The notes beneath the pieces are model-generated. The model searched no databases, was not told the DNA's origin, and saw nothing but the letters and a program-made list of their open reading frames with translations. A DNA stretch of 39,223 nucleotides from a virus, in IMG/VR virus record IMGVR_UViG_3300020125_000394, positions 1-39,223 of that record; one strand, given 5' to 3'. A program made the position numbers and the translations under genes. Positions 8,018 through 38,841 of this stretch are shown here, piece after piece; position 1 is the stretch's first letter, and each line of letters opens with the position of its first letter.

Positions 8018-8884
8018 TCACTTCCACGATTTGGCACTCTTGAGAAGATTCTTACACAGTTCAATCACCTGCTTATGAAGACCTGCCTTGGGAATAAGCA
8101 GGTTCAAATCGTCGAAGACCCTCATAGCGGCCTCCATCGTCTTGGCCGCCTTCGCCCGTAGATCGTCGCCATGGTCTTTCTTCTCCTCGGGCTGCGAATC
8201 GGCCGGCTCGCCCCATGGGTGTAGGCACTTGGCACAGTCCACCATGCCGAATTCGTCAGTGTTCCACTTCGTTCCCGCACAGTTCGGGCACTTCCCGTAA
8301 TCCACCTTCCCCGGCGCGGAATTCCGCTCCTTGCCACTCCTCGGCGGCCTGGGGTCTGTCTCCTGGGAACTCGTTTCCCGCTCTGTTCCTTCCTCTCCTG
8401 ATGAATCAGCGGCCTCGCCGGGGTCCGGGGCGGCAGAAGCAGGGTGTGGTTCTTTCGACGAGTTAGCATCGCCGCCCGGCTTCCCTTTCTCGCTGATTGA
8501 ATCGCTCGCAAGTCCATTGCTGTCAACAGGTTTGCGTTCTTCCAAATTCCGCACGTGCGGAATTTGAGGCTTCTCTACCTTTCCTATCTTGATGAGTTCA
8601 TTGATGGAGAAGTCCTCGGGCTTCATGGTCGCCGGAATTCTCTTTACTGCGTTCGCAGCCTTCATATACCTGCCGGCGGAATCGTGCGAAAACTCAAAGT
8701 GCTGTTCGACGAATGGCATAAACTCACCGTGCGGCAGTAACTCCTTCATGGTGTTCAGGACGCCACCGATCTGAATGGCCGTCCCCATCCAGTCCCTTCC
8801 GGCCTTCACATGCTCACGCCAGAGCGCTTTGAGTTCTGGAATGAGGTTGTAAGCCTTCGTTTGCTCGGTGGTGAGTGCTGACAT
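8018..8884 (-). CDS. DUF3102-like N-terminal domain protein with C-terminal zinc ribbon
   Basis: The 288-residue protein has an N-terminal helical region (DWMGTAIQIGGVLNTMKELL, then PHGEFMPFVEQHFEFSHDSA and GRYMKAANAVKRIP). This pattern matches the DUF3102-type phage domain, which resembles the DNA-binding part of partition/primase-associated proteins. A long low-complexity Ser/Glu/Pro linker follows, then a zinc ribbon (CPNCAG...CAKCLHPW) and a C-terminal helix. It is probably a DNA-binding replication or segregation factor. The start has AAGGA 8 bases upstream. The leader between this gene and csrA contains interleaved inverted repeats that could control its expression. Confidence 0.65.
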   Translation of the reverse strand: MSALTTEQTKAYNLIPELKALWREHVKAGRDWMGTAIQIGGVLNTMKELLPHGEFMPFVEQHFEFSHDSAGRYMKAANAVKRIPATMKPEDFSINELIKIGKVEKPQIPHVRNLEERKPVDSNGLASDSISEKGKPGGDANSSKEPHPASAAPDPGEAADSSGEEGTERETSSQETDPRPPRSGKERNSAPGKVDYGKCPNCAGTKWNTDEFGMVDCAKCLHPWGEPADSQPEEKKDHGDDLRAKAAKTMEAAMRVFDDLNLLIPKAGLHKQVIELCKNLLKSAKSWK

Positions 8885-9011: not shown

Positions 9012-9458
9012 CTACTCTTCTTCGCCTTCTGTCAATCCTTCGTTCTGAATTTTTCCGTCCGGCTCGTGAGAAATCGACACATGCCCGCGGCCGGCGCAAG
9101 CCGCGGGGAAGGCGATCCTGGTCCCAGCAAGCAATTCTTCTTGGGTTAAGTACCAGAAAGATTTGCCATCGAAACCCCATTCCACGAGAGAACCTTTCGG
9201 GAAGCCATCCGTCAGCGTCAGTTCGCAATACTCTTCTCCCTCCTTCGGTTCCCATTTGTCTGAGGGAACGCCGCTTAGAAGCGGCCGCTTCGCCCCATTT
9301 TTCTTAATGTCGTCGTAAATCTCTTGCCGATGGACTTGGGTAGTGGCGGGGGCTTCGATGCCCAGGCGAACCTTGTCACCGCGAATGTCCACGACCATGA
9401 CTTTCACGTCGTCGCCGATCATCAGCGATTCCTGTTTCTTCCTACTCAGAACTAACAT
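9012..9458 (-). CDS. csrA: CsrA-domain protein with long C-terminal extension
   Basis: Residues 1-60 are an almost canonical CsrA: MLVLSRKKQESLMIGDDVKV, then DIRGDKVRLGIEAP and VHRQEIYDDIKKNG. CsrA dimers bind GGA motifs in mRNA leaders and repress or stabilise translation. Ordinary CsrA ends near residue 60-75. Here another ~85 residues follow (including DGFPKGSLVEWGFDGKSFWY and a Glu-rich end) with no recognised family. The frame is continuous, so this is a genuine fusion or extension. The start overlaps the NinG-like gene by 17 bases, with AAAGGA upstream. Likely targets could be phage or host mRNAs; the next gene's leader contains several GGA motifs. Confidence 0.9.
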   Translation of the reverse strand: MLVLSRKKQESLMIGDDVKVMVVDIRGDKVRLGIEAPATTQVHRQEIYDDIKKNGAKRPLLSGVPSDKWEPKEGEEYCELTLTDGFPKGSLVEWGFDGKSFWYLTQEELLAGTRIAFPAACAGRGHVSISHEPDGKIQNEGLTEGEEE

Positions 9459-23017: not shown

Positions 23018-23884
23018 ATGAATCTGACCTTCACCAACTTCGATTCCCGGCTGATTTCGCCCCGGCTGTGGAGAGGCTTCGCGCCGCCGGATTCCATGAA
23101 TCCATCGGGGTCAAGCTGGATTACCCCCAGCGGAAACCCGGCTTTCGGGTTTTTCGACAACTTCTTCACGGTTCCGACGACGACGCTGATTAGCCCCTAC
23201 CTGAAACTCGCCGGGGCCGGTTGCTCGGTCGAGCAGATTGTGGACACGGCGACTGAGAAGGGAATCATGCAGCTTGCCATCGACGGCAACGCGGCCGACG
23301 ACGAAGCGGTTCTCCAGTGGGGCCGTGGAATCGGTGCCCCGTTCCTCTTCTCGGACAAGGATCTGGTGTTCGAGTGCCGGTTCACGATGGATGCGATCAC
23401 GGCGGCGAAGTGGTCGCTGTTCGTCGGTCTGGCGCTGGCCGATTCCACGAACGGAGCCGGCATCACCGATAAGGTCTTCACCGATTCGACGGAAGTTCTG
23501 GCGACGACGTTCTCGGGCGTCGGATTCCAGCATCTCTCGGCGAACGGTGCGACGTGGGACGGAGGCTACAAGGCCGCTTCCCAGACCGCTCAGGACGGTT
23601 CGACGAAGACGAAGCTGTTGTCCCTGCACACGATGGTCGCCGGAACCTACGTGCGGCTCGGATTCCGGTATCGGGCCTACCCGAAGAAGGTGGAGTGGTA
23701 CGTCAACGGCGTCCGCCCCGGTGGACTCACCGCCCCGGCGCAGATCACGGCGACGGAAATCGCCGCGGCCACGTTCCCCGCTTCCACGGTTCCTATGGCC
23801 CCGGTCTTCGCGGTCAAGGACAAGGCCGGAAACGCGGCTTTGAACGTGAAGCTGGACTGGTGGGCCTGCGCCCAGATGCTGTAA
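23018..23884 (+). CDS. virion protein, beta-sandwich (lectin-like) candidate
   Basis: The 288-residue protein follows GAAAGGA and starts MNLTFTNFDSRLISPRLWRG. It is rich in beta strands with DLVFECRFTMDAITAAKWSL and VGLALADSTN, then TYVRLGFRYRAYPKKVEWYV and NGVRPGG. This 'strand-shape VEWYVNG' pattern resembles concanavalin-like (jelly-roll) phage proteins that decorate the head or sit in fibres. The position right after the capsid gene fits a head-decoration protein. Function inferred from pattern and place. Confidence 0.62.
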   Translation: MNLTFTNFDSRLISPRLWRGFAPPDSMNPSGSSWITPSGNPAFGFFDNFFTVPTTTLISPYLKLAGAGCSVEQIVDTATEKGIMQLAIDGNAADDEAVLQWGRGIGAPFLFSDKDLVFECRFTMDAITAAKWSLFVGLALADSTNGAGITDKVFTDSTEVLATTFSGVGFQHLSANGATWDGGYKAASQTAQDGSTKTKLLSLHTMVAGTYVRLGFRYRAYPKKVEWYVNGVRPGGLTAPAQITATEIAAATFPASTVPMAPVFAVKDKAGNAALNVKLDWWACAQML

Positions 23885-23901
23885 TCGGGTTGGAAACGAT
23901 T

Positions 23902-23936
23902 CCCCCGCCAGTCGCAAGATGCTAGGCTGGCGGGGG
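23902..23936 (+). terminator. strong hairpin between late genes (terminator-like, no U tract)
   Basis: CCCCCGCCAG (23902-23911) pairs perfectly with CTGGCGGGGG (23927-23936) around a 15-base loop. No T run follows, so it may slow or protect the transcript rather than end it. Confidence 0.55.
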
Positions 23937-23955
23937 TAACCCCAAGGATTCTCTT

Positions 23956-24852
23956 ATGACTCTCTTCCGCCCGCTGGTCCTGGCCCTGCTGCTGTTTTGC
24001 GTCCCAGGGCATTGTGCGGAGCCGAAGAAGGTCAGTATCAGCCGGAATTTCCAGGCCGACGCACAACTGAACTTGAAATCCTCCTACGAGCAGGGGGAAC
24101 CGATTCGCGTTGGCTGCACCTGCAATCCCGGGCCCGATGTGAAGCTGTCAACGGAATGGGCCTTCAGCTCCGGTCTCCAGGCCATCGACATCGACGATTT
24201 GACGAAGGACGTCTGGGCGAAGCCGGGCACCAACAAGATCAGCGTCAAGCTGAAGCTGCTTCGCACGCACAAGCTCACGGTGTTCGTTCCCGACCCCGCT
24301 TCCCCGACCGACATTACCAAGGCGAAGCTGCAGGTCATCGAAGTATTCGACGGGTACACGGAATCGGTGCTGGATGGTGAGTTCGTCCAGAAGGGAGCCG
24401 TTGACCCGGTTCCTGTTCCGCCCCCAGGACCGCCACCGCCGCCCCCCCCTCCACCGTCACCCGTGACGAGCGGCCCGCTACGGGTGATGATTCTGGAAGA
24501 GGCCGACGACCGGCGGGACAACAAGTACCCTGCCCAAGTGGTAACAGGCTACCAATCTTCCGCCGTTTTTTCCTATCTCGGTAGCCACGGTGCGGCCAAC
24601 TTCAAGCAGCCGGTCACGTTCGACGACGACTACGCAGCCGGACAACTGACCAAGGCCGGTTACACGACCGACGTTGAAGACGCATATCAGGCCGCCAAGG
24701 TTGCCAGCGGAGCGAACACGGCGGCAGCGAAGGAACCGTGGATGACGGTTCAACAGGCGGATTCGACGGGGAAATTCCAAACGGTCTACAGCGGAGAGGT
24801 CTTCGACGAGGCCCGCACGCTGAAAGTCCTTCAGAAATTCGGGGGGCCGTAG
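23956..24852 (+). CDS. secreted two-domain protein with polyproline linker
   Basis: The 298-residue protein has a Sec signal peptide (MTLFRPLVLALLLFCVPGHC with A-E following). An Ig- or beta-sandwich-like domain follows to about residue 145 (GEPIRVGCTCNPGPDVKLST). A Pro-rich linker comes next (PVPPPGPPPPPPPPPSP), and then a C-terminal domain with LRVMILEEADDRRDNKYPAQ and a KVLQKFGG end. That last region has the look of planctomycete thioredoxin-like domains, but no CxxC is present. It would be exported through the inner membrane. It is likely a partner of the papain-like peptidase that follows. Confidence 0.65.
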   Translation: MTLFRPLVLALLLFCVPGHCAEPKKVSISRNFQADAQLNLKSSYEQGEPIRVGCTCNPGPDVKLSTEWAFSSGLQAIDIDDLTKDVWAKPGTNKISVKLKLLRTHKLTVFVPDPASPTDITKAKLQVIEVFDGYTESVLDGEFVQKGAVDPVPVPPPGPPPPPPPPPSPVTSGPLRVMILEEADDRRDNKYPAQVVTGYQSSAVFSYLGSHGAANFKQPVTFDDDYAAGQLTKAGYTTDVEDAYQAAKVASGANTAAAKEPWMTVQQADSTGKFQTVYSGEVFDEARTLKVLQKFGGP

Positions 24853-24854
24853 CG

Positions 24855-25652
24855 ATGCAGATGATGTATCAATCTTCGAGCGGCATGGTCTATCCGGTTT
24901 GCGATGAGTTCACTACTCCCCCGCCGCATATCGAAGCGGGGCAGGGGCATGGCTACGCTGGCCCATCCCCCGTTCCGCTTCACGGCAGCGGACAGTTCAC
25001 GGCTTCGCTGGTCAATCCCGCCGACTATGAAGAGGCCATCAAGACCAAAAAGGACTGGATAACCACCCTCTGCGATCAGGTGGGGCTCGGCGTTAAGAAT
25101 CAGTCCAACAGCAACTACTGCTGGATTCACGCACCGACCCACGGGATGGAAGTCTGGTACGCGCTGTTCGAGGGCACGATCAAGGTGCTATCGGCTTTCT
25201 ACGCCGGGGCCATCATCCAGGGCGGCCGGAACTCGGGCGGAAGCGGCGTCACTGGTTCCAACTGGCTGATGGAGAACGGGACGTGCCTCGAATCCATGCA
25301 CCCGCCGATGAGCTTCTCGACTCGCAACGACGCTGCCACGGTAGAGAACGCCAAACTCCACAAGATTGATTCGGCCCTGGAACTTGACACCAACGACCAC
25401 CAGGCCATCATCACGGCGGTTCTGAACAACCAGCCGGTGACGGTTGGCATCCCGGCGTGGTCCCACGAGATTCTGATTACCGGGCTCGTGTTCGATAAGT
25501 CGGCCTACTCATGGAACAACGGGGTCGGCTACATCTTCGATAATTCGTGGGGAAGCGACTGGGGCAACAACGGTCGCGGCATCCTCTCGCGTTCCTATTC
25601 CCGTTTTGATGAGGCCATGATTATCACTGGCTGTACCCCCTCACTCGCATAA
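24855..25652 (+). CDS. papain-like (C1A) cysteine peptidase
   Basis: The 265-residue protein has KNQSNSNYCWIHAPTHGMEV with Gln83 (oxyanion) and Cys89 (nucleophile), WSHEILITGL with His204, and IFDNSWGSDWGNNGRGIL with Asn230. This reproduces the papain Gln-Cys-His-Asn order; the C-terminal NSWG..W..nG element is almost diagnostic. There is no signal peptide and no inhibitory propeptide of usual length. In a phage late operon the enzyme could open the cell wall or process virion proteins; phage lysins usually use CHAP or NlpC variants, so a C1A-type enzyme here is unusual. It follows the secreted protein by 2 bases. Confidence 0.86.
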   Translation: MQMMYQSSSGMVYPVCDEFTTPPPHIEAGQGHGYAGPSPVPLHGSGQFTASLVNPADYEEAIKTKKDWITTLCDQVGLGVKNQSNSNYCWIHAPTHGMEVWYALFEGTIKVLSAFYAGAIIQGGRNSGGSGVTGSNWLMENGTCLESMHPPMSFSTRNDAATVENAKLHKIDSALELDTNDHQAIITAVLNNQPVTVGIPAWSHEILITGLVFDKSAYSWNNGVGYIFDNSWGSDWGNNGRGILSRSYSRFDEAMIITGCTPSLA

Positions 25653-25662
25653 GGATTCGCTC

Positions 25663-25965
25663 ATGACTTACCTCGCTTTCCTCCAACAGCTTCTCACCGT
25701 CGGCGCTGCGAAGCTCCCCCGCGTCATCGCCTTCCTGCAGGCTGTCATGGACCTGCTCTCGCAGTTCAGTGACATCCTGACTCTGGCCCCGACTCACAAC
25801 GCTGCTGAACCGACCGCCGAAGAGGCCGGTCTGGAAGCTCGGGTGATTGCCGAGTCCCACGTTCACGGCGCGATCGGCGACGGGAGCCTGCTGCGGAACC
25901 TGTTCGCGTTCATCAACGCCCATCCCGAACTGCTGACGCTGCTTCTGACCCTGCTCAAGAAGTAA
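25663..25965 (+). CDS. small helical hypothetical protein (100 aa)
   Basis: It starts MTYLAFLQQLLTVGAAKLPR and is helical and Leu-rich at both ends (FLQAVMDLLSQFSDIL and LLTLLLTLLKK), with an Ala/Glu-rich acidic middle. The hydrophobic ends may touch a membrane. It lies in the lysis region and its stop overlaps the next tiny ORF (TAATG). No family recognised. Confidence 0.55.
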   Translation: MTYLAFLQQLLTVGAAKLPRVIAFLQAVMDLLSQFSDILTLAPTHNAAEPTAEEAGLEARVIAESHVHGAIGDGSLLRNLFAFINAHPELLTLLLTLLKK

Positions 25966-26030
25966 TGACCTCGCTTCAATACCTGTTCCTCATCTGGTTG
26001 CTGATAACCCTCTGGTGGTACAGGAAATGA
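25965..26030 (+). CDS. tiny single-pass membrane peptide (21 aa)
   Basis: The ATG overlaps the previous stop, and the frame reads MTSLQYLFLIWLLITLWWYR then K. It is one hydrophobic helix ending in Trp-Trp-Tyr-Arg-Lys, as in inner-membrane anchors. The stop overlaps the next ORF's ATG. Such tiny membrane peptides occur in phage lysis cassettes (pinholin or antiholin-like); a role here is inference. Confidence 0.5.
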   Translation: MTSLQYLFLIWLLITLWWYRK

Positions 26031-26155
26031 CCGACCTCGAACGCCTACAAGCCGAGCATGATTTAATCGAATCCAGAATCAAGGAACTGCACGCCCGGCT
26101 GGACGAGATTGACGAGGAGATGACGGCGATTCTGGCGAAGCAAGAAGCAAAATAA
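26027..26155 (+). CDS. small coiled-coil protein (42 aa)
   Basis: Starting in ATGA overlap with the membrane peptide, it reads MTDLERLQAEHDLIESRIKE, then a matching heptad run (LHARLDEIDEEMTAILAKQE). It is one continuous coiled coil. Next to a tiny membrane peptide it could form a two-part lysis accessory, like spanin or antiholin pairs, but it has no export signal. Confidence 0.5.
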   Translation: MTDLERLQAEHDLIESRIKELHARLDEIDEEMTAILAKQEAK

Positions 26156-26179
26156 CCCAAGTATGGAGGCAGCGGCACG

Positions 26180-26884
26180 ATGCTACTGGCAGAAGTGGTC
26201 GAGGCAAAATTCGTATTCCCTGAAAAGCTAACGGGCCTTGATGGATGGCTCGAAATGTTCAGTTCATTATTCAGGGAATACCCGTTGCTGGGAGTCCTGC
26301 TTTCGCTGATTGTTCTCGACATAGCCACTGGCGTACTCGCTTCCGGAATTGCCAACAAACTCTCGTCCGTCGTGTCGTACAAGGGGGTTATGAAGAAGGG
26401 AGTGATGATTCTGGCGGTCGTCGTCGCAAAGATTATGGAGGCGGTGATTCCCCAGGCTCCCCTGATGACGTTGGGTTGCCTGGGGTTCATCGGCGTCGAA
26501 CTGTTCTCCATCATCGAGAATTGCGGCAAGGCAGGGGTTCCGATTCCCGCCAAGCTGATGAGCATGTTCGAGAAGTTCAGGGCTGAGAAGATTGCCGAGG
26601 AGAAGCCTCCTACGGTAGTTCAGGTCAACGTCGATGAGTCTGTCGTTGCACCGAAGAAGTCCCCGTACAAGCGTCCGAGCGATGTGGTGATAAACGTGAA
26701 TGATAGCGGGGAAGTAAGCGTGGAAGAGACTGGGGCACACAGCGCCGTCGTCATTGGAAGCCGTTTCAAAGGTGAGAAGGGCGACCAAGGGAAGCAGGGA
26801 GAGCACGGCGTAAAGGGCGACAAAGGCGAAAAGGGTGAAACCGGAGCCAAGGGTGATAGATACCCGCCAAACAAAGGAACGTGA
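26180..26884 (+). CDS. phage holin (family 4-like) with collagen-like C-terminal tail
   Basis: Residues about 30-140 follow the Phage_holin_4 pattern. A hydrophobic LLGVLLSLIVLDIATGVL is followed by ASGIANKLSSVVSYKGVMKK, a second and third membrane segment, and VELFSIIENCGKAGVPIPAK. Holins form membrane holes that release the lysin. A charged linker follows, and residues about 198-226 are nine Gly-X-Y triplets (GEKGDQGKQGEHGVKGDKGE and on), a collagen-like triple-helix sequence, ending KGDRYPPNKGT. A holin fused to a collagen-like tail is unusual. The frame is uninterrupted. Confidence 0.85.
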   Translation: MLLAEVVEAKFVFPEKLTGLDGWLEMFSSLFREYPLLGVLLSLIVLDIATGVLASGIANKLSSVVSYKGVMKKGVMILAVVVAKIMEAVIPQAPLMTLGCLGFIGVELFSIIENCGKAGVPIPAKLMSMFEKFRAEKIAEEKPPTVVQVNVDESVVAPKKSPYKRPSDVVINVNDSGEVSVEETGAHSAVVIGSRFKGEKGDQGKQGEHGVKGDKGEKGETGAKGDRYPPNKGT

Positions 26885-26886
26885 TT

Positions 26887-27102
26887 ATGAACCTGCTTCT
26901 CGCCCAAGGGGGCATCCGAATCGACTGGAGCATCGGCAGCATCGCCATCGCTATCGTCATCATCGCGGCTGTAGTGGCCCTGGTGTACATTGCCCTGCGG
27001 CAGTTCAATGTTTCCATTCCTGCCTGGGTCGTCCAGGTGTTTTGGGTTCTGGTGGTCGCGGTCGTCGTGATCCTGGCCATCAGATTCGTTTTGAGTCTGT
27101 AG
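26887..27102 (+). CDS. small two-span membrane protein (71 aa)
   Basis: It starts MNLLLAQGGIRIDWSIGSIA after AAAGGA. Two hydrophobic segments (AIAIVIIAAVVALVYIAL and VVQVFWVLVVAVVVILAIRF) are separated by RQFNVSIPAW. It overlaps nothing but follows the holin by 2 bases, so it may be an antiholin or second holin component. The family is not recognised. Confidence 0.65.
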   Translation: MNLLLAQGGIRIDWSIGSIAIAIVIIAAVVALVYIALRQFNVSIPAWVVQVFWVLVVAVVVILAIRFVLSL

Positions 27103-27128
27103 CTCTGTCCAAGAAAGGTAGGTGATCC

Positions 27129-27314
27129 TTGAAACGCATTCTGATTCTGACCGTCGCCCTGCTCCTCGGAAGCGTGGCTGCCGTGGAAGCCGGTTGTTCC
27201 GGTGGTTCGTGCGGCGTCGGCCGGCGAGTTGCCCAGAACTCCGCGGCACGTCGTAGTGAAGGCCGTGGCCTCGCCCGGATTCGTCCGCGGAACTGGCGGA
27301 TTTTCGGAGGGTAA
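27129..27314 (+). CDS. small secreted Cys-containing peptide (61 aa)
   Basis: A TTG start at 27129 is preceded by GGTAGGTGA. It encodes a signal peptide (MKRILILTVALLLGSVAAVE then AG|C) followed by CSGGSCGVGRRVAQ and a basic, Arg-rich tail ending RIFGG. The Cys right after the cleavage region might make it a lipoprotein, though the lipobox is imperfect. Similar short CSGGSCG peptides occur in planctomycetes. A role at the envelope during lysis is plausible. Confidence 0.6.
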   Translation: MKRILILTVALLLGSVAAVEAGCSGGSCGVGRRVAQNSAARRSEGRGLARIRPRNWRIFGG

Positions 27315-27320
27315 ATCCCC

Positions 27321-27680
27321 ATGCAGTTCGACATCCACGTCCACCATCACTTCCCGACTTCTCCAGCAGAGGAATCCAGGCTCGCCGCGATTCTGGCTCT
27401 GCTGGAGAAGATTCACAAGCAAGGAGAGAAAATCATGTCCGCTGTTTCTGACTTCGCGGCGAAGGTCAATGAGGCTTTCGCCGACATCTCGACGCACGTT
27501 GATGGGCTGACGGCTGATGTCAACAGCCTGAAAGAGCAAATCGCAGCCCTGCAAAATTCGCAAGGAGCGATTTCCCCGGAGGACCAAGCATCGCTCGACG
27601 CGATTCAGGCCAAGGCGGAAGCCATTTCCGGCAAGCTGCACGACTTGGACGCCGCGACCGACACGCCACCGGCTCCGTAA
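27321..27680 (+). CDS. coiled-coil fibre-like protein (119 aa)
   Basis: It opens MQFDIHVHHHFPTSPAEESR and has a long helical region (EKIMSAVSDFAAKVNEAFAD, then LTADVNSLKEQIAALQNSQG) with heptad spacing. It ends in a Pro/Thr tail (ATDTPPAP). A His-rich start plus a coiled coil is seen in short phage fibre or tail-spike connectors. It is followed by a strong terminator. Confidence 0.6.
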   Translation: MQFDIHVHHHFPTSPAEESRLAAILALLEKIHKQGEKIMSAVSDFAAKVNEAFADISTHVDGLTADVNSLKEQIAALQNSQGAISPEDQASLDAIQAKAEAISGKLHDLDAATDTPPAP

Positions 27681-27710
27681 CACAGTACGCCCCTGACGGG
27701 GTTCTTCGCG

Positions 27711-27748
27711 CCAGCGGGTAGGAGGGAGAGCCTGCCCGCTGGTTCTTT
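27711..27748 (+). terminator. intrinsic terminator
   Basis: CCAGCGGGTAGG (27711-27722) pairs with CCTGCCCGCTGG (27731-27742) over 12 bp with one G-U pair, around an 8-base loop, followed by TTCTTT (27743-27748). A smaller CCCC-TGA-CGGGG hairpin lies just before it near 27690. Confidence 0.82.
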
Positions 27749-27764
27749 AACAAATGGAAAGATT

Positions 27765-28091
27765 ATGGCAAACATCACTAACCCAGAAGTCGTCAAGTTC
27801 GCCAACGAGAAAATTCGCAGGCTGAACGACATGCACGTTGCCCACTACCGGACGTGCAAGGAATTTAAAGCCGAATGGGACACGCTCGGATACGGGGCCA
27901 TTTTCGCCGTCAGCAACTCCGACGTGGTAGTTGATGGTGCCCCCGCTGATGGTCGCCACGCCATGACATCTTTCGACGCCAACAACGCCTACAACCGGGC
28001 CAGTGAAGTCGTTGCGGACTACGAGGCCAATACCAACACGAAGCTCAATCAGGCGAACGCCATCGCTGTGAACACTAACCCGCTGTTCTAA
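27765..28091 (+). CDS. virion-associated hypothetical protein (108 aa)
   Basis: It starts MANITNPEVVKFANEKIRRL with a helical first half (DMHVAHYRTCKEFKAEWDTL) and a second half with AIFAVSNSDVVVDGAPADGR and a helix near the end. It is followed closely by the beta-helix gene, so it may be a head-tail or fibre-related component. No family recognised. Confidence 0.6.
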   Translation: MANITNPEVVKFANEKIRRLNDMHVAHYRTCKEFKAEWDTLGYGAIFAVSNSDVVVDGAPADGRHAMTSFDANNAYNRASEVVADYEANTNTKLNQANAIAVNTNPLF

Positions 28092-28102
28092 GGTAACTAG
28101 CC

Positions 28103-29563
28103 ATCGTCCTTCCCACGATACTAATCGACAGCGGTTCCGGCAGTGATACCCAAGCATCCGGGGCGGGCCCCTCTACGGCCAAGTTTGGCACCACTGATGC
28201 CAGCACGGACGGAGCAGGGACGACCGTTACTCTCACGGCGGGAACGGATTTGAGCGGCGTAGCTACTGATGGAAGTCACGTTATTTTCCTTAACGACTCT
28301 ACAGCCGGTGCTCGCAACTTCGGAAAAATCACCGGGAGTGCAGGCAGCGGCGGGGCGACTCCAACCGTCACCGTTGCAGACGCTTTTGGGATTAACCTAA
28401 CTACCAAATCATGGGCCATCGGAGGGAAACGAGCGAGCATCGGCGGCACGACGAGCAAAAAGCTGTTTGACAACAATTCTGGCAATGGCGATGCAATGCC
28501 CGGCTGGATTGTCGAAATGCAGAGCGCCCATTCAGAAACCATTGCGGCCACATTCGACTGCCGCAGGGCAGGGGATACGACATCTGGCCGAATTATTCTC
28601 CAGGGCAAAAGCGGTGCAGCTACGCGACCCTTGCTGACGTTCTCCAACAACGGCAACTGCATTGTGCCTCGCGGAAACTATCTGACGTTCCAGGATTTTG
28701 AGTTGCAGAACTCTAACGCTACAAAAACAGCCAGCATTGCCTTTAACAACGCCACGACGGAAAAAGTCGTTATCAAGAACATTAAGTGCAGCAATTCCAC
28801 CAATAAATTCTGGAAGTTCCTTCTGAATCAAAGCCTGAATACCTCATGTGAAGTGATGGACTGCGAGATTGGAAATACGGCATCGTTCGCACTCGACTTT
28901 GGCTCTGCCGCTAACAATCTTGGTTCTATTCACATTGTCAATAACTGGATTTACAACTGTGGTGGCAACGCCATCTCGTTGGGCTCCAACGCATATTTCT
29001 CTTCGCTCATTCACGGCAACGTCATCTACAACACAACAGGCATTGGAATTTCCTACGACAACTCCCGCACCGACAGCCTGGGCGGGATGATTATTATTAA
29101 CAACACGATTGATAGTTCATCATCCGATGGAATCAAAGTCGTCACTTCCGCCGTGAGCATCGTGAGCCTTGACATTGTCAACAATATCTTGTCGAACAAT
29201 GGTGGCTACGGGCTAAACTTCGGCGCTGCTGGCCATACGGACGCACTCCTTAACGCTTACGGCCCGACGATTCGCGGCAATACGACCTACAACAATACGA
29301 GCGGAGCATACAAGAGCAACACCGCAGGGTATGCCTACAACACCTGCCCTTGGGCGAGCGGAGACAGCGGACTAAACCCGACCTATTCCGCCGCATCGTC
29401 TGGAAATTTCATGCTCGGAACAAATCTCAAGGCACAGGGCTATCCGATTGGCGGGACGCTTGCGGTGGGGACGGGAAGTTCCACGTATAGCTACGTTGAC
29501 CCTGGCGCGGCACAGCGGCAGGAATATGGACCACGCGCCCGTTACGTCATGGGAGGTTTTTAG
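28103..29563 (+). CDS. parallel beta-helix virion protein (tail-spike/receptor-binding type)
   Basis: The coding frame continues upstream of the first canonical codon (TTG 28250): PTILIDSGSGSDTQASGAGP is natural sequence for the N-terminus of such proteins. The most likely start is ATC at 28103, 8 bases after AAGGT, giving 486 residues. Past residue ~150 the sequence is a series of short beta turns (IHIVNNWIYNCGGNAISLGS, then IIINNTIDSSSSDGIKVVTS), typical of right-handed parallel beta-helix spikes that bind or cleave host surface glycans. No catalytic residues can be assigned. A canonical start cannot be found in this frame, which is noted separately. Confidence 0.75.
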   Translation: MVLPTILIDSGSGSDTQASGAGPSTAKFGTTDASTDGAGTTVTLTAGTDLSGVATDGSHVIFLNDSTAGARNFGKITGSAGSGGATPTVTVADAFGINLTTKSWAIGGKRASIGGTTSKKLFDNNSGNGDAMPGWIVEMQSAHSETIAATFDCRRAGDTTSGRIILQGKSGAATRPLLTFSNNGNCIVPRGNYLTFQDFELQNSNATKTASIAFNNATTEKVVIKNIKCSNSTNKFWKFLLNQSLNTSCEVMDCEIGNTASFALDFGSAANNLGSIHIVNNWIYNCGGNAISLGSNAYFSSLIHGNVIYNTTGIGISYDNSRTDSLGGMIIINNTIDSSSSDGIKVVTSAVSIVSLDIVNNILSNNGGYGLNFGAAGHTDALLNAYGPTIRGNTTYNNTSGAYKSNTAGYAYNTCPWASGDSGLNPTYSAASSGNFMLGTNLKAQGYPIGGTLAVGTGSSTYSYVDPGAAQRQEYGPRARYVMGGF

Positions 29564-29565
29564 CA

Positions 29566-29868
29566 ATGGCTGCACCGTATAATCCTCCCGTCAAAGGCGA
29601 AGACTTCGTAATCCGAATCGCTCTGGAAAACATGTCTAGCCCCGGTTCGTTCAAGGACACCCCCACGATTGCAGCAGGGGACTTCAAGGTGAAGAAAGAC
29701 GGCGGAGCGACGGCGAACCTGACGACACTTCCGACCGCTAGCGGCATCGAAGTTACGATCACGCTCTCGGCTACCGAAATGACCGCCGATAACGTCTTCG
29801 TTCAGTGCATCGACCAGACCAGTCCGAAAGAGTGGGCCGACTTCGCGTTTTGCATCCCGACAACCTAG
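29566..29868 (+). CDS. small virion protein, beta-rich (100 aa)
   Basis: It starts MAAPYNPPVKGEDFVIRIAL after GGGAGG. FKDTPTIAAGDFKVKKDGGA and EVTITLSATEMTADNVFVQC have the alternating hydrophobic pattern of a small beta-sandwich. Position between the beta-helix and the Ser/Pro-repeat protein suggests a fibre or neck component. No family recognised. Confidence 0.65.
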   Translation: MAAPYNPPVKGEDFVIRIALENMSSPGSFKDTPTIAAGDFKVKKDGGATANLTTLPTASGIEVTITLSATEMTADNVFVQCIDQTSPKEWADFAFCIPTT

Positions 29869-29880
29869 CGGGAGGCTGTC

Positions 29881-30552
29881 GTGTTTAGGTTCTTTTTCGG
29901 GAAGGCAGCGGCGGCCGGCAGCAGCAGCCCTTCAACGTCGCCGAGTGCAAGCACCAGTTCTTCACAAAGCGCATCGCCTAGTAGCAGTCCTTCCGCAAGC
30001 CCATCGGCTTCGCCCTCTTCTTCTCCCTCGGCTTCGGTCTCGGCGTCTCCCTCGTCAAGCCCGTCAGCATCCCCCAGCAGTAGTCCTTCCGCTTCGCCTT
30101 CAGCAAGCCCTTCCACGAGTCCCAGTTCCAGCCCGTCACCATCAAGCAGCCCCAGCAGTTCGCCCAGCCACACGCCGTCTTCCTCTCCCTCTGCAAGCGT
30201 TTCAGCTTCGCCTTCTGCAAGCCCCAGTGCGTCGGTCTCGGCAAGCCCATCATCGAGTCCGTCCGCATCTCCCTCTCCGTCAGCCTCACCATCTGCTTCG
30301 CCTTCGCACAGTCCTTCAGCCTCACCCTCTGCCACCCCCAGCGCTTCGGTTTCCTCTTCCCCCTCTTCCAGCCCCAGTAACATCCAGGAAGTCCTCATCG
30401 AAAGTGATACAATACTCGTGCAGGACAAGACGACTCAGCGGGCGAAAGTGATTAGTGCGGTCGCCCACACGGAAATCCTGCTGTTCACGGAAGCAGGGCA
30501 CGAATTCGGGACAGAAACCACGCTTATAGAGAGCGATTCACATGGCCACTAG
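29881..30552 (+). CDS. Ser/Pro/Ala-repeat (mucin-like) virion protein (223 aa)
   Basis: It starts at GTG after GGGAGG with MFRFFFGKAAAAGSSSP. Residues about 14-166 are nearly pure Ser, Pro and Ala with some Thr and Val (SPSASPSASPSSSPSAS and variants), and the last ~57 are an ordinary domain (IQEVLIESDTILVQDKTTQR and on). Codons for Ser and Pro vary between repeats, so the amino acid pattern is under selection, not just expanded DNA. This kind of stretch is flexible and a good O-glycosylation substrate. The C-terminal domain probably anchors it in the particle. It overlaps the adaptor gene by 11 bases. Confidence 0.8.
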   Translation: MFRFFFGKAAAAGSSSPSTSPSASTSSSQSASPSSSPSASPSASPSSSPSASVSASPSSSPSASPSSSPSASPSASPSTSPSSSPSPSSSPSSSPSHTPSSSPSASVSASPSASPSASVSASPSSSPSASPSPSASPSASPSHSPSASPSATPSASVSSSPSSSPSNIQEVLIESDTILVQDKTTQRAKVISAVAHTEILLFTEAGHEFGTETTLIESDSHGH

Positions 30553-31792
30553 ACTTTTGCAAAAAACGTTCAGGGTGGACGGGGTTCTGACGGACGTGAC
30601 CAGCGCCAAGATGTCCGACCCCACGGGCACCTATGGAATCAGGCGGAACGACACCCTGGCCGTGGTAGTGGCAGATGGCACGAACATGACCCACAGCGCC
30701 ACGGGGGTCTACGAATACTCGTTTGAGGACATTCAGGACATCGCTTACACGGCCTACGTCGAATTCGTCTACGCCGGCTCCACGTTTCACTTCGAGGTCG
30801 ACATCCCGGCCCGAGCAGAAACGGGCACGATGGTCGCCAGTTACTCGATGCTGACCGACCGGGTGGGGCATTACCTGTTCGGAATCAGGACCGGATTCGA
30901 CTCCGACCAGCTCGACGACATCGAACAGTGCATCCGGGACGGACTTCACGACGTCTATTCCGTCCGCCCGTGGAGCTTCTTCCGGCCCATTTCGGAGATC
31001 ACTACCACGGCGCCGTACACCACGGGGACCGTTTCCATCGCCGCGGGCGTGGTGACTCTGACCGCCGGAACGTGGCCGACCTGGGCGGCCGGCGGGCTTA
31101 TGAAGGTCTCGAACGCCTACTACAACGTGGCTTCTCGGGAGAGTAATTCCCAGATCACCCTGGAAGACACTTCAGTCACCGTGGCTTCGGGAACCAGCTA
31201 TGAGCTCGGGCGGCCGGAATACGACCTGCCCACGGGGTTTGAAGCGATTTCCGGGGACAGCGATTTGAACTACGAACCGGGTTCTTCTAACTTCTGGCCC
31301 CCGGTCAGACAGCGGCATGACAGCCGAATTCGGCTGCTTCAGGAGACCGACCCGTTCTACGACCGGCCCGTTCTCTACTCCGTACGTACGGTGACGTTCG
31401 ACGCGACCTTGGGTTCCCGGAAGCGGCTGGCACTCTACCCGACCCCCGATGCGGCCTATGTCCTACGGGTTCCGATGATTCTCAGGCCCACGATGATCGA
31501 CGAAACGAACCAATATCCGGTTGGCGGGGAAACGCTGACTCAGGTTATCATTGAAGCGTGCCTGGCGGCGGCGGAACGGAACTTCGACGAAGAGAACAAG
31601 CGGCACACCGAACGGTTCAAGGAAATGCTTCCACTGGCAATCCAAGCCGACTTGGAGAAAAGCTCCCCGACGAGCCTCGGACCAGATAGAGGTGATTGTG
31701 GCTATGGTTATGGGTATGGCTTTGGTTATGATTACGACTTAGCGAGGGCCTCCCGAATTGGGGACATCACGCTCGATTCCGACATCCTGTAG
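30542..31792 (+). CDS. head-tail adaptor-like protein (416 aa)
   Basis: It opens MATRLLQKTFRVDGVLTDVT. The first ~95 residues are an Ig-like beta domain. About residue 100 onward, VASYSMLTDRVGHYLFGIRT and DDIEQCIRDGLHDVYSVRPW follow the pattern of phage adaptor/connector proteins. A second beta region carries LQETDPFYDRPVLYSVRTVT, and helices with IIEACLAAAERNFDEENKRH come near the end. The tail has an aromatic Gly/Tyr stretch GYGYGYGFGYDYD. It is probably the ring below the portal in a short-tailed phage; the call is by pattern and place. Confidence 0.65.
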   Translation: MATRLLQKTFRVDGVLTDVTSAKMSDPTGTYGIRRNDTLAVVVADGTNMTHSATGVYEYSFEDIQDIAYTAYVEFVYAGSTFHFEVDIPARAETGTMVASYSMLTDRVGHYLFGIRTGFDSDQLDDIEQCIRDGLHDVYSVRPWSFFRPISEITTTAPYTTGTVSIAAGVVTLTAGTWPTWAAGGLMKVSNAYYNVASRESNSQITLEDTSVTVASGTSYELGRPEYDLPTGFEAISGDSDLNYEPGSSNFWPPVRQRHDSRIRLLQETDPFYDRPVLYSVRTVTFDATLGSRKRLALYPTPDAAYVLRVPMILRPTMIDETNQYPVGGETLTQVIIEACLAAAERNFDEENKRHTERFKEMLPLAIQADLEKSSPTSLGPDRGDCGYGYGYGFGYDYDLARASRIGDITLDSDIL

Positions 31793-32704: not shown

Positions 32705-33259
32705 ATGCCCGGCACACCACCTTCCCGAATTCATCACGACCTGTATCGCGGCCCGAAGCGTCTCAAAGACCCCGGCAACGCTGGAATCATCCGGCCGGCT
32801 GCAGACCTGCAGATCTGCGAGATGGTCAGCAGCGCTTCCAACGAGACGCGCACGCTTCCCCGACCCACCAAAGCGGGAATTCGGCTAACTCTCCGAATGA
32901 TGACGGACGGCGGCGGTGACATCGTGGTCACGGCGACTGGCGGCTGGAATATCGCTGGTGAAACTCAGGCGACGTTCGCGGACGTCAGCGACTTCCTTTC
33001 ACTCATTTCCGTCACGGTCAGCGGTGGCCCAGGACCGAGCGGGGTTTACCGCTGGGAATCTGATGGAACGAATATCGGGGTGGTTGTCTCTTCGACTTCA
33101 CCCTCGACCAGTCCTTCCACTTCGCCCTCGGCGTCGGCGTCGAATACCCCGTCCACGTCACCTTCGCCTTCCGCGTCGGTGTCGAACACCCCTTCGACTT
33201 CTCCTTCGCCTTCGGCCTCTGTCTCTAACACCCCGTCCACCAGCCCGTCGCCGACCTAA
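32705..33259 (+). CDS. virion protein paralog with Ser/Thr/Pro-repeat tail (184 aa)
   Basis: Residues 1 to ~127 repeat the fold of the previous protein (ADLQICEMVSSASNETRTLP, then GIRLTLRMMTDGGGDIVVTA and DVSDFLSLISVTVSGG). Residues ~130-184 are a Ser/Thr/Pro tail built on NTPSTSPSPSASVS, repeated about three times with different codons. So the duplicate gained a mucin-like tail of the same style as protein 29881..30552. It ends directly at the start of the glycosyltransferase gene (TAATG), which supports a shared pathway. Confidence 0.75.
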   Translation: MPGTPPSRIHHDLYRGPKRLKDPGNAGIIRPAADLQICEMVSSASNETRTLPRPTKAGIRLTLRMMTDGGGDIVVTATGGWNIAGETQATFADVSDFLSLISVTVSGGPGPSGVYRWESDGTNIGVVVSSTSPSTSPSTSPSASASNTPSTSPSPSASVSNTPSTSPSPSASVSNTPSTSPSPT

Positions 33260-34708: not shown

Positions 34709-35344
34709 ATCCAAGACCTCAGAAAAGCGTTAGAGAAGTATTTCCGGTTCGCCGGGGGACTCGATAATCTCCCGATTCTGGCGACTGCCCGAAACCGAGG
34801 CCGAAGACATTCCCGGGGACGGGAGAATCTGGCCCAGGTGATGAACGACCTGGGGCTGAAGAAGGGGGTCGAAATCGGCTGCCGCTACGGTCACTCGGCG
34901 ATTCTCTGGAAACAGGCGATTCCTGACCTGGACCTGACCTGCGTTGATCCCTATCGGGCTTACCACCGGGTCAGGCAGGAATCTCAGGACAGGATTTACG
35001 CCGCGGCTATGATTCACGCCGAACAGCATGGCTTCAAGATCCTCCGCAAGGCCAGTCTCGACGCCGTGGATGACTTCGCTGACGGTTCACTGGACTTCGT
35101 GAACGTCGACGGCGACCACACGTTCGACGCGGCGATTCAGGACATCATTCGCTGGGCCTGGAAGGTCCGCGAAGGGGGCCTGGTTCTGGTTCACGATTAC
35201 TGCGCGTTTGCAATGTCGGGAGTGATTCCGGCTGTGGACGCTTACACGAACTGCCACTGGATTGACCCCTGGTACGTGACGCGGGACATGGAACCGACCG
35301 CGTTCTGGATGCGGGGGGCGGAAAGGGCGGGGTTGGGATCGTAG
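34709..35344 (+). CDS. class I SAM-dependent methyltransferase
   Basis: The core is clear: VMNDLGLKKGVEIGCRYGHS (motif I, GVEIGCRYG), then DLDLTCVDPYRAYHRV, LDFVNVDGDHTFDAAIQDII and GGLVLVHDYCAF. It binds SAM and methylates an unknown target; enzymes of this type in sugar clusters often methylate glycans. The frame is open well upstream of GTG 34838 (YFRFAGGLDNLPILATARNR is natural coding sequence). The best start is ATC at 34709, 6 bases after TAGGT, giving 211 residues; GTG 34838 would remove a conserved-looking helix. A nearby ATG at 34704 is in another frame and soon stops. Confidence 0.82.
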   Translation: MQDLRKALEKYFRFAGGLDNLPILATARNRGRRHSRGRENLAQVMNDLGLKKGVEIGCRYGHSAILWKQAIPDLDLTCVDPYRAYHRVRQESQDRIYAAAMIHAEQHGFKILRKASLDAVDDFADGSLDFVNVDGDHTFDAAIQDIIRWAWKVREGGLVLVHDYCAFAMSGVIPAVDAYTNCHWIDPWYVTRDMEPTAFWMRGAERAGLGS

Positions 35345-35347
35345 CTT

Positions 35348-36187
35348 ATGAACGAGAAAATGCTGAACTGGCTTGAAGAGAAGGAATCCAAATTCCGTCG
35401 CGCTGCTGAAGTGGCTCGCAGCGGAATCAAATTGAGCATTATTGTGCCTGTACTCAACAGCCACGAAATCCTTCGTCGGCAGCTTCTATTCTACGCTCAG
35501 ATGGGAATTCCTTCGGACACCGAACTCATCATCGTTGACGACGGAAGCGACCCGCCGCTTCAAATCCAAGAACATGAAACCCCGGATATTCGGACCTATC
35601 TTCACCGGACGCATGATAAACGCCCCTGGACCTGGGCCTTAGCCAGAAACGCGGGGGCTAGAATCGCCGAGGGCGAATATCTCCTGATGTACGACCTGGA
35701 CCACATCGTCCCGAAGTTCGCCATCGACTTCATCAGGAAGACCACCGCTACCAAGGTTCAATTCGTGCGGGAATTCGGCGTGCTGGACGAACAGGGCAGA
35801 CTGACCCAGGACCGCGATGTGCTCGAAACTTATGGGCTTCCGAAGAACGTGAGCTTGGCTCATGGCCCGCTTCCCAATAACTTCGCCATGCGAAGAGACG
35901 TGTTCTGGGAACTGGGTGGATACCGGGAAGACCTCGTGACGAAGCCCTACCCCCAGGGCGAAGACCGCTCCTTCCGCAGCGCTTGGCGTACCTACGAGAT
36001 TCAGCGGGGTGGAGAAGGAAGCCAAGTCTGCGAACACCGCCCGAAGATATACCACTTCCCCAACGGGAAATACGTCGGGGACGTGGACGCCGATCCCAAG
36101 GGCCTGTTCCATACCCTGAGCCGGAAGACGGAGCGGAACTGGTTCCACAAAAACCCTGGCAAGAGTGCAAGACACCGTGGCAGATAA
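35348..36187 (+). CDS. family 2 glycosyltransferase
   Basis: The 279-residue protein has a 27-residue lead-in and then the GT2 core: LSIIVPVLNSHEILRRQLLF, IIVDDGSD (about 61-68), and MYDLDHIVP where DLD is the metal-binding DxD (about 116-118). RNAGARIAEGEYLLMYDLDH and NNFAMRRDVFWELGGYREDL match the GT2 acceptor side. It uses a nucleotide-sugar to extend a glycan or glycosylate a protein. The 3' end overlaps the next gene by 23 bases. It forms one unit with the neighbouring methyltransferases and glycosyltransferase. Confidence 0.88.
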   Translation: MNEKMLNWLEEKESKFRRAAEVARSGIKLSIIVPVLNSHEILRRQLLFYAQMGIPSDTELIIVDDGSDPPLQIQEHETPDIRTYLHRTHDKRPWTWALARNAGARIAEGEYLLMYDLDHIVPKFAIDFIRKTTATKVQFVREFGVLDEQGRLTQDRDVLETYGLPKNVSLAHGPLPNNFAMRRDVFWELGGYREDLVTKPYPQGEDRSFRSAWRTYEIQRGGEGSQVCEHRPKIYHFPNGKYVGDVDADPKGLFHTLSRKTERNWFHKNPGKSARHRGR

Positions 36188-36803
36188 GTGGCCCACCATC
36201 AGGCGAGACGACTACCTGCGCATGGCCGACCGGCATCTGCCGTTTTCTGCGGCGCTGATGCGGTTCATCGTGACCAACAAGGTCAAGAGCATTGTCGAAA
36301 TAGGCTGTGGGCCAGCGAATCTCAGTCATCTGGTCGATGACTACACCGGGATCGACACGAACGAGGAGGTTCTTCGGGACAACGCATTAAACTACGGTCA
36401 CGGGACGTGGATTAACGACGACTGGCGAAATGTGGACGCCACCACCCTGATGGTTGATTTGTTCGTGTCCTCTTCGGTAATTGAGCATTGCGAGTCGTTT
36501 GAACCGTTTCTGGAATGGGTCAATCGCTTGGCCTCGCCCTACTCCGTAGTGACGTTCCACAAGGGTCTTCGGAATAGGGCAAGGATTCGCCGCGACAAAC
36601 TGCCGCCGTTATTCGACAACCATTATTGCCGTGCTGACGTGCAAGGGTGGCTTTCCAGAAACATCTACGGGCAATGGAATCTCTACGACCTTCCGCTGTC
36701 CAGAGCGCGTTTTCGGAACCGGAAGGATTCCGTCCTAGTGATCGACCGCACCGGGAAAGCCGATTTGAGCATGTGGGAAAAGAAGGAATTGCATGGCAGC
36801 TAA
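36165..36803 (+). CDS. class I SAM-dependent methyltransferase
   Basis: It starts at GTG 36165 (MQDTVADKWPTIRRDDYLRM) within the end of the previous gene. Motif I is IVEIGCGPANLSHLV (about 43-57) and motif II is GIDTNEEVL; FVSSSVIEHCESFEPFLEWV is motif IV/V of small-molecule-type methyltransferases. The second half is less clear. It is probably a glycan or small-molecule methyltransferase in the sugar cluster. It overlaps the next gene by 11 bases. Confidence 0.78.
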   Translation: MQDTVADKWPTIRRDDYLRMADRHLPFSAALMRFIVTNKVKSIVEIGCGPANLSHLVDDYTGIDTNEEVLRDNALNYGHGTWINDDWRNVDATTLMVDLFVSSSVIEHCESFEPFLEWVNRLASPYSVVTFHKGLRNRARIRRDKLPPLFDNHYCRADVQGWLSRNIYGQWNLYDLPLSRARFRNRKDSVLVIDRTGKADLSMWEKKELHGS

Positions 36804-37791
36804 ACTTCTCTCCGTCATCGTCCCCGGCCGCAACGAAGAGTTCATGCGGCACACCGTCGAGGACATTCTGGCGCACTCTGGCGAAGAAACTGAGGTCATC
36901 TCGGTCAACGATGGCTATTGGTGCAATCCTCCGCTGGTTCAGCATCCACGGCTTCAGGTGATTCACTTCGGCGAACCAGTCGGCCAGCGGGCAGCCACGA
37001 ACTATGGCGCTCATCTCAGCCGGGCGAAATACGTGATGAAGATGGACGCCCACTGTTCGACCGACGAGGGATTCGACCGAAAGCTCATCGCCAAAATGCA
37101 GCCGGATATGACAATGATCCCATCAATGCACCGGCTGCACATCTTCGACTGGGTGTGCGACGGCTGCGGGGAAAGGGAGTATCAGGGAACCAAGCCCAAA
37201 CAATGTAAGGTGAAAGAGTGCAAGGGCACCGAATTCACGAAGGCTATGGTTTGGCAGCCCAGAACCGAGTTCAAGGCGACTGCCGCGTGGAGGTTCGACC
37301 GCACGCTTCACTTCCAATACTGGCGGGAGTACAAGGAAACGGAGGTCTATAAGAAACAGGCCACTTCCGGCATCGTCGAGACGATGAGTTGCAACGGCTG
37401 CTGCTTCCTGATGGAGCGGAAGCGGTTCAAGAAGCTCGGGGGAATGGACGAAGGGCATGGTTCCTGGGGCCAATTCGGGACCGAACTCGCCTGCAAAGCC
37501 TGGCTCTCAGGGGGGAGACTGGTTGCCAATCTCGACACCTGGATGGCCCATCTTTTCCGCACCGGCAACTTCGGGAAGGACGGCGAATCGTCCTGGCCGT
37601 ACCCCATAAGCCAATCCGCGATAGATGTCGCCCGGAAACATTCCCGCGAACTCTGGCTCAATAACTCTTGGCCGATGCAGAAACGCCCGCTGTCGTGGCT
37701 CATCGAACACTTCTCTCCCGTGCCAGAGTGGGATGATGAGGCAATTAAGCAGTTGAAGGAGACGGAGAGTAGCTTCGTGCCGGCGACGTAA
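36793..37791 (+). CDS. GalNAc-transferase-like glycosyltransferase (GT27-like) with inserted zinc ribbon
   Basis: The 332-residue protein opens LLSVIVPGRNEEFMRHTVED. Its metal motif is MKMDAHCSTDEGF (DAH 85-87), as the DSH/DAH of polypeptide GalNAc-transferases. The second half has FLMERKRFKKLGGMDEGHGS then WGQFGTELACKAWLSGGR and WMAHLFR (His253), which follows the Gal/GalNAc-T block 'LGxxDExxxxWGxExxExSxxxWxxGG ... HVFR' closely. A four-Cys zinc ribbon (C122, C125, C138, C143) is inserted between the halves and is not part of that family as I know it. It would transfer a sugar to Ser/Thr; the acceptor could be the repeat proteins. A plain GT2 member is the alternative. Confidence 0.8.
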   Translation: MAAKLLSVIVPGRNEEFMRHTVEDILAHSGEETEVISVNDGYWCNPPLVQHPRLQVIHFGEPVGQRAATNYGAHLSRAKYVMKMDAHCSTDEGFDRKLIAKMQPDMTMIPSMHRLHIFDWVCDGCGEREYQGTKPKQCKVKECKGTEFTKAMVWQPRTEFKATAAWRFDRTLHFQYWREYKETEVYKKQATSGIVETMSCNGCCFLMERKRFKKLGGMDEGHGSWGQFGTELACKAWLSGGRLVANLDTWMAHLFRTGNFGKDGESSWPYPISQSAIDVARKHSRELWLNNSWPMQKRPLSWLIEHFSPVPEWDDEAIKQLKETESSFVPAT

Positions 37792-38400: not shown

Positions 38401-38841
38401 CTAGAAACTGAGGGTGTACGTGTTGGCCGGGCCGTTGTAGATCAGAATGCCTTGAGACAGCACGTCACGACCTAACAGTCCATCAATGCCCTGGCACGCC
38501 AAATCTGATTCGACAATCGGGAGTGTATTCACAAAGTGAAATGCCCCGTTTTCCAAAACGACGCCGATGTCCACGTCGAATTGCTTGCACTCAACAGGAT
38601 TCCCGGAAGTTGTCGGGGTGTGGATTTGGATTAGCCCAGTTGCCGCCACGCCGAGCTTGCTGAGGTGAGTAGGGTCAATGCACGTACCGCTAGCCCCAGT
38701 ATCGACAAGCACATGAATGAGAACGGCATCGGGAACCGGCTGCCCTGCCGCCTTAAGAGCATCTCGCCGAGCCTTACTGGCCCAGACAACCAGATGGGCC
38801 TTTGGCCCATCGGGTGTCATGGCGAGGGTTACACTTGGCAT
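38401..38841 (-). CDS. retropepsin-like aspartic protease (clan AA)
   Basis: The 146-residue protein has VLVDTGASGTCIDPTHLSKL, where DTGAS holds the catalytic Asp, and a matching GIDGLLGRDVLSQGILIYNG at the end, the flap and C-terminal part of the retropepsin fold. It acts as a homodimer, cleaving peptide bonds. Stand-alone bacterial members occur in cyanobacteria, planctomycetes and phages; substrates are mostly unknown. The upstream gene overlaps it by 13 bases. It might process a virion protein, or the gene may be a host-derived accessory. Confidence 0.85.
   Translation of the reverse strand: MPSVTLAMTPDGPKAHLVVWASKARRDALKAAGQPVPDAVLIHVLVDTGASGTCIDPTHLSKLGVAATGLIQIHTPTTSGNPVECKQFDVDIGVVLENGAFHFVNTLPIVESDLACQGIDGLLGRDVLSQGILIYNGPANTYTLSF

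Follow-up and report, generated by a model that had tools for sequence, protein, structure and literature searches.

A gene in a 39,223-base IMG/VR virus record, the whole of which we call the window, encodes a phage holin that continues into a collagen-like Gly-X-Y tail. Judged from its sequence, the fusion is real, a rare form of a known lysis protein, and not a sequencing error: the same arrangement recurs in a second phage, where the glycines of the repeat are kept in frame although the DNA beneath them has changed.

The holin domain and its predicted topology

The ORF (26180-26884, + strand) opens with an ATG ten bases behind a GGAGG and closes with a TGA at 26882-26884 (Table 1). PF05105 (Phage_holin_4_1) matched residues 35-134 with E=1e-24 and 87.3 bits against a Pfam cut-off of 22.2, and the holin family phrog_199 aligned to residues 32-146 (1.3e-17). 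Across 23 aligned holin sequences, annotated holins included, D47, G51, S63 and K73 are invariant and G69, E107, S110, E113 and N114 almost invariant. An AlphaFold2 model built with 16 related sequences (a two-sequence input gave a pLDDT of 42) reached ten-residue block-mean pLDDT values of 86-95 over residues 21-140; it starts with a short helix, followed by membrane-length helices at 35-58, 63-89 and 95-117 and a further one at 124-141. Foldseek searches of BFVD returned viral holins (best E 3.3e-5; nine matches at E<=0.001), among them those of Streptococcus phages C1 and Cp-7; a Foldseek search of the PDB found no significant match to the window holin among solved structures. A preliminary description of this DNA had assigned the N-terminal part to the family-4 holins, a reading now backed by sequence profiles and predicted fold; the motifs that it quoted are all found in the ORF. 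On these grounds the product is a Phage_holin_4_1-family holin, with a putative role in opening the cytoplasmic membrane at a set time.

How would such a protein lie in the membrane? The loop between helices 1 and 2 has a charge of +2 to +7 and is positive in 23/23 aligned members, and the charge of the N-terminus ranges from -3 to +1. By the positive-inside rule, the positive first loop and three membrane helices predict an N-out, C-in topology, with the tail in the cytoplasm. Action of the tail outside the membrane, one of the roles proposed earlier, is less likely given this predicted charge pattern. The topology of the TcdE-type holin family has been described as largely unclear (PMC9527704).

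Table 1. Features of the holin gene and its neighbors (window positions)
Feature	Position	Strand	Basis
Papain-like (C1) peptidase, 265 aa, candidate partner enzyme	24855..25652	+	PF00112 E=2.4e-7
Small helical protein between peptidase and holin	25663..25965	+	no convincing family match
42-aa charged ORF, directly ahead of holin	26027..26155	+	sequence
GGAGG, ribosome-binding-site-like	26165..26169	+	read directly from sequence
Holin with collagen-like tail, 234 aa	26180..26884	+	ORF read from sequence, PF05105
Phage_holin_4_1 domain, residues 35-134	26282..26581	+	PF05105, phrog_199, AlphaFold2, Foldseek
Linker, residues 142-197, with predicted beta-hairpin and KRPSDV motif	26603..26770	+	L078 comparison, AlphaFold2
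Ten uninterrupted Gly-X-Y triplets, residues 198-227	26771..26860	+	sequence count, shuffles
C-terminal end YPPNKGT	26861..26881	+	YPP likewise after repeat in L078
73-aa protein, two hydrophobic segments; start overlaps holin stop	26881..27102	+	sequence
61-aa peptide, signal-like N-terminus	27129..27314	+	resembles L142 counterpart; no family match

The linker and the Gly-X-Y tail

Beyond the holin domain, AlphaFold2 predicted a beta-hairpin at linker residues 169-184 with low-to-medium confidence and left the tail unresolved, at low confidence, in the single-chain model. Pfam and PHROG profile searches found no enzyme domain in residues 142-234, so the protein is not a holin-endolysin fusion. 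The tail reads GEK GDQ GKQ GEH GVK GDK GEK GET GAK GDR, that is, ten consecutive triplets where nine had been counted before. No run of ten arose in shuffles (20,000 each for the whole protein, the last 100 residues and the last 38 residues), the longest shuffled run being 8.

The hallmark of PF01391 (Pfam Collagen), an uninterrupted glycine at every third residue, extends over ten triplets in the window and six in its homologue from the second phage (L078). The PF01391 score of the window tail, 23.2 bits, is below the 27.2-bit cut-off, probably because the tail is short, and L142 reaches 14.2 bits; we therefore call the tail collagen-like and not a PF01391 member. In PHROG the best matches to the tail were mostly tail proteins. 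Six KGE/KGD pairs are spread across the ten window triplets, and proline is absent from the triplets of both tails. A simple DNA repeat or microsatellite is excluded because the glycine codons are mixed (GGT/GGC/GGG/GGA) and change synonymously between the phages.

The same fusion in a second phage

Relatives of the phage were gathered from IMG/VR using the presumed capsid and portal proteins as queries. Within this set, a PF05105-family holin occurs at two loci, L078 and L076. L078, on the 60-kb contig IMGVR_UViG_3300037070_004226, holds a complete homologue of 222 aa with 47% identity, so that the search for the same fusion in other phages, which the preliminary description had proposed, gave a positive result. 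The L078/L142 homologue matches PF05105 (1.7e-24, 86.6 bits) and keeps the window protein's order of parts: holin, KRPSDV linker, six Gly-X-Y triplets and YPP. Identity in the linker is 42%, with the KRPSDV motif conserved. We also considered that the linker might be a mobile module found on other proteins and rejected the idea, as a linker-only scan of IMG/VR returned the L078 contig alone. The holin genes of L076 and L144 stop at contig ends, before any readable tail.

In the six triplets that can be aligned between the window and L078, 6/6 glycines are kept and 6/6 of their codons differ at the third base, synonymously, and 7/12 of the X/Y residues differ. Retention of the glycines despite synonymous codon change and X/Y divergence suggests that selection maintains Gly-X-Y in the tail, a comparison of one sequence pair (the two complete tailed members in the data) and not a formal test. 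Because L078 keeps the glycines in frame, it also argues against a frameshift; the continuous ORF and this in-frame codon conservation indicate an intact frame.

Rarity of the fusion

How common is a holin of this kind? We took a census of 130 distinct holin-family ORFs that matched a holin profile built here, drawn from viral contigs, phage and plasmid records and bacterial genomes; the census is limited to the ORFs found by the scans and makes no claim to be complete. Gly-X-Y tails were present in 2/130, the window and L078, which supports the earlier view that collagen repeats are unusual on holins. The median length past the holin domain was 2 residues over the 130 ORFs, against 79-91 residues of linker and tail here. 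One further ORF, L283, has four glycine-spaced triplets (GKGGDGGIPGNY) without a collagen-like repeat. In 199 sampled genomes from the phylum of Fictibacillus there were about 70 holin matches; the bacterial holins that we inspected, most of the longest included, had no collagen-like run and carried charged non-collagen tails or no tail. No phage or plasmid record covered 80% of the query by BLAST, whose low-complexity filter may hide tails. Scans with the full-length proteins returned mostly loci of collagen-like proteins that match through the repeat alone. The titles and abstracts of the open-access literature searched contained no report of a holin-collagen fusion.

The contig of a related phage (L030; G009:C1:10669-12504) carries an open frame of 975 aa that encodes many collagen repeats and may have supplied repeats of this kind within the phage group.

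Gene neighborhood and candidate partners

The holin gene is located inside a variable slot (23885-30541) bounded by homologues of 23018-23884 and 30542-31792. The slot measures 65-110 bp in many relatives and holds several kilobases of differing genes in others. A PF05105 gene was not found in 28/30 related records, and for this reason we do not regard the holin as the group's conserved lysis gene.

The papain-like peptidase upstream has Cys, His and Asn motifs of the active site, and no hydrophobic signal segment is seen in it; also encoded upstream of the holin is a protein whose N-terminus is signal-like. At the same place L076 has a weaker papain-like match (18.3 bits against a cut-off of 20.7). 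The peptidase position in L142 (6755-7783) is occupied by a 342-aa protein without a Pfam match, unrelated to the papain-like proteins of the window and L076; its HEYKGHGDGLEH and GGIMNP motifs recall a zinc peptidase. Papain-like peptidases occur in 7/18 records tested, most of the others lying outside the holin slot. C1 peptidases thus recur in the phage group (window 24855-25652; L375, L376, L377, L378, L379). They are often preceded by a small protein whose N-terminus is signal-like, and they may act in lysis or on the envelope. Amidase_2 and Phage_lysozyme were found neither in the window nor in 17 related records, which are fragments.

Two small ORFs follow the holin. The product of 26881-27102, which has an alternative ATG at 26887, is a candidate antiholin or second holin. 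In L142, a 46-aa ORF (8666-8806) that has a single hydrophobic segment overlaps the holin stop in the same way; its product is likewise a candidate antiholin, and the two proteins are not visibly related in sequence. The signal-like peptide of 27129-27314 and its L142 counterpart, likewise after the holin, have ARRSEGRG in common, and the latter contains a lipobox-like LAGC. Together, the holin and the small membrane and secreted ORFs look like a lysis cassette in fragmentary records, with a putative enzyme.

Elsewhere in the genome, cultured phages offer no match to the major capsid protein, and to the terminase only distant matches. Long Ser-Pro/Ser-Ala-Ser tracts (SASPSSSPS) mark structural-region proteins of the window (29881-30552, 32705-33259), of L142 (12794-13597) and of relatives. 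The window also encodes a CsrA-like regulator (9012-9458, - strand; PF02599 E=4.6e-24 over its N-terminal 52 residues) that carries a long C-terminal extension, a cluster of methyltransferase and glycosyltransferase genes (34838-37791) and an aspartyl-protease-like protein (38401-38841, - strand; PF13650 E=8.6e-7).

Discussion

What does the tail do? We tentatively favor, at a little under an even chance, a joint explanation in which a selected collagen-like tail on a Phage_holin_4_1 holin tunes holin oligomerization and hence the timing of lysis. Holins accumulate and then assemble suddenly, and charge pairing of the KGE/KGD type stabilizes triple helices without hydroxyproline. The holin would cross the membrane three times, leaving its tail on the cytoplasmic side; once enough holins had collected there, their tails would meet and the charge-paired (KGE/KGD) Gly-X-Y strands could associate in threes. 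Such association would favor or pace holin oligomerization and so set the moment of membrane opening, when a cell-envelope enzyme would be released or exposed. We take the neighboring papain-like peptidase as the candidate enzyme because Pfam scans of most of the larger genes recognized no canonical endolysin in the window.

Charged residues are generally abundant at the X and Y positions of viral collagens (PMC3368898). A stable triple helix formed by the tail alone is nevertheless doubtful, as the two tails are short (10 and 6 triplets) and proline-free; a strand by itself would probably not be stable, and membrane crowding would thus have to help. We consider it rather unlikely that, in this uncultured phage lineage, a cytoplasmic collagen triple helix sets the stoichiometry of holin assembly or its timing. 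If it does, collagen folding would be newly used as a membrane-lesion clock.

The main rival dispenses with the triple helix: the tail would be a flexible, highly charged cytoplasmic extension that sets timing by charge, Gly-X-Y being merely a soluble sequence. We judge this rather unlikely. In its favor, holins typically end in a charged, hydrophilic C-terminus (PMC9327680), L277, L278 and L285 bear charged extensions of 28-80 residues that are not collagen-like, the L078 tail has just six triplets and neither tail contains proline. Charge, however, hardly explains why both phages keep glycine strictly at every third residue, with its codons changing synonymously and the X/Y residues free to vary. 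An origin by frameshift or mis-assembly, joining a holin to part of a tail-fiber gene, is scarcely credible and we reject it. It would account for a repeat usually found in fibers and for the PHROG matches to tail proteins, but the same fusion, with its linker and its end, stands in another contig at 47% identity, no other collagen stretch was found in the window, and conservation is in frame at the codon level.

Two further alternatives are less likely than the charged tail. The protein may be an accessory export holin in a cargo slot, which releases the peptidase and other cargo without ending the infection and uses the tail as a putative docking handle. The scarcity of PF05105 genes among the related records, the small size of the slot in many relatives and the change of protein at the peptidase position (papain-like in the window and L076, unrelated in L142) are consistent with this, and both non-lytic holin export and cargo on a holin C-terminus have been proposed (PMC9527704). 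We nonetheless judge it improbable: the usual lysis genes may be undetected in such fragmentary records, and the small membrane and secreted ORFs right after the holin resemble an ordinary lysis cassette. Quite improbable, too, is a tail that faces outward (C-out) or flips across the membrane to act in the cell envelope, for example in wall anchoring. Flipping of the C-terminus has been proposed for holins, backed by a natural holin-endolysin fusion (PMC9527704), and collagen-like phage parts normally function extracellularly, but the C-terminus is predicted to be cytoplasmic from the three helices and the first loop, which is positive in each of the 23 members.

If the tail does tune holin oligomerization, it would extend collagen-like repeats from virion fibers to a membrane-lysis protein. 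Beyond a few model systems, the way in which holins time lysis is still poorly understood, and a natural, removable and periodic tail of the oligomerization type would offer a compact handle on it, since lysis time can be compared directly with how long the tail is and how much glycine it contains.

How does this holin compare with known systems? With the Phage_holin_4_1 family (TcdE-type; holins of Streptococcus phages C1 and Cp-7) it has the domain, three predicted membrane helices and motif positions in common; ordinary members end soon past the domain, whereas the window and L078 proteins add a linker and a Gly-X-Y tail. The long-tailed Bacillota holins L277, L278 and L285 likewise follow PF05105 with a charged C-terminal extension, but one without Gly-X-Y periodicity. 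Among phage collagens, EPclA of E. coli O157 prophages (PMC3368898) and SPP1 gp12 (PMC6316719) contain Gly-X-Y repeats in which an acidic X and a basic Y are favored, as they are here. Both are thought to be virion fibers or capsid proteins, whereas the holin repeat is short, proline-free and attached to a membrane protein; EPclA, moreover, has separate trimerization domains and proline-rich X positions, unlike the holin tail. In the natural holin-endolysin fusions of the TpeE family of Clostridium sporogenes (PMC9527704), a holin also bears an extra C-terminal module. TpeE belongs to a different holin family, and its added module is an enzyme, whereas here it is a repeat.
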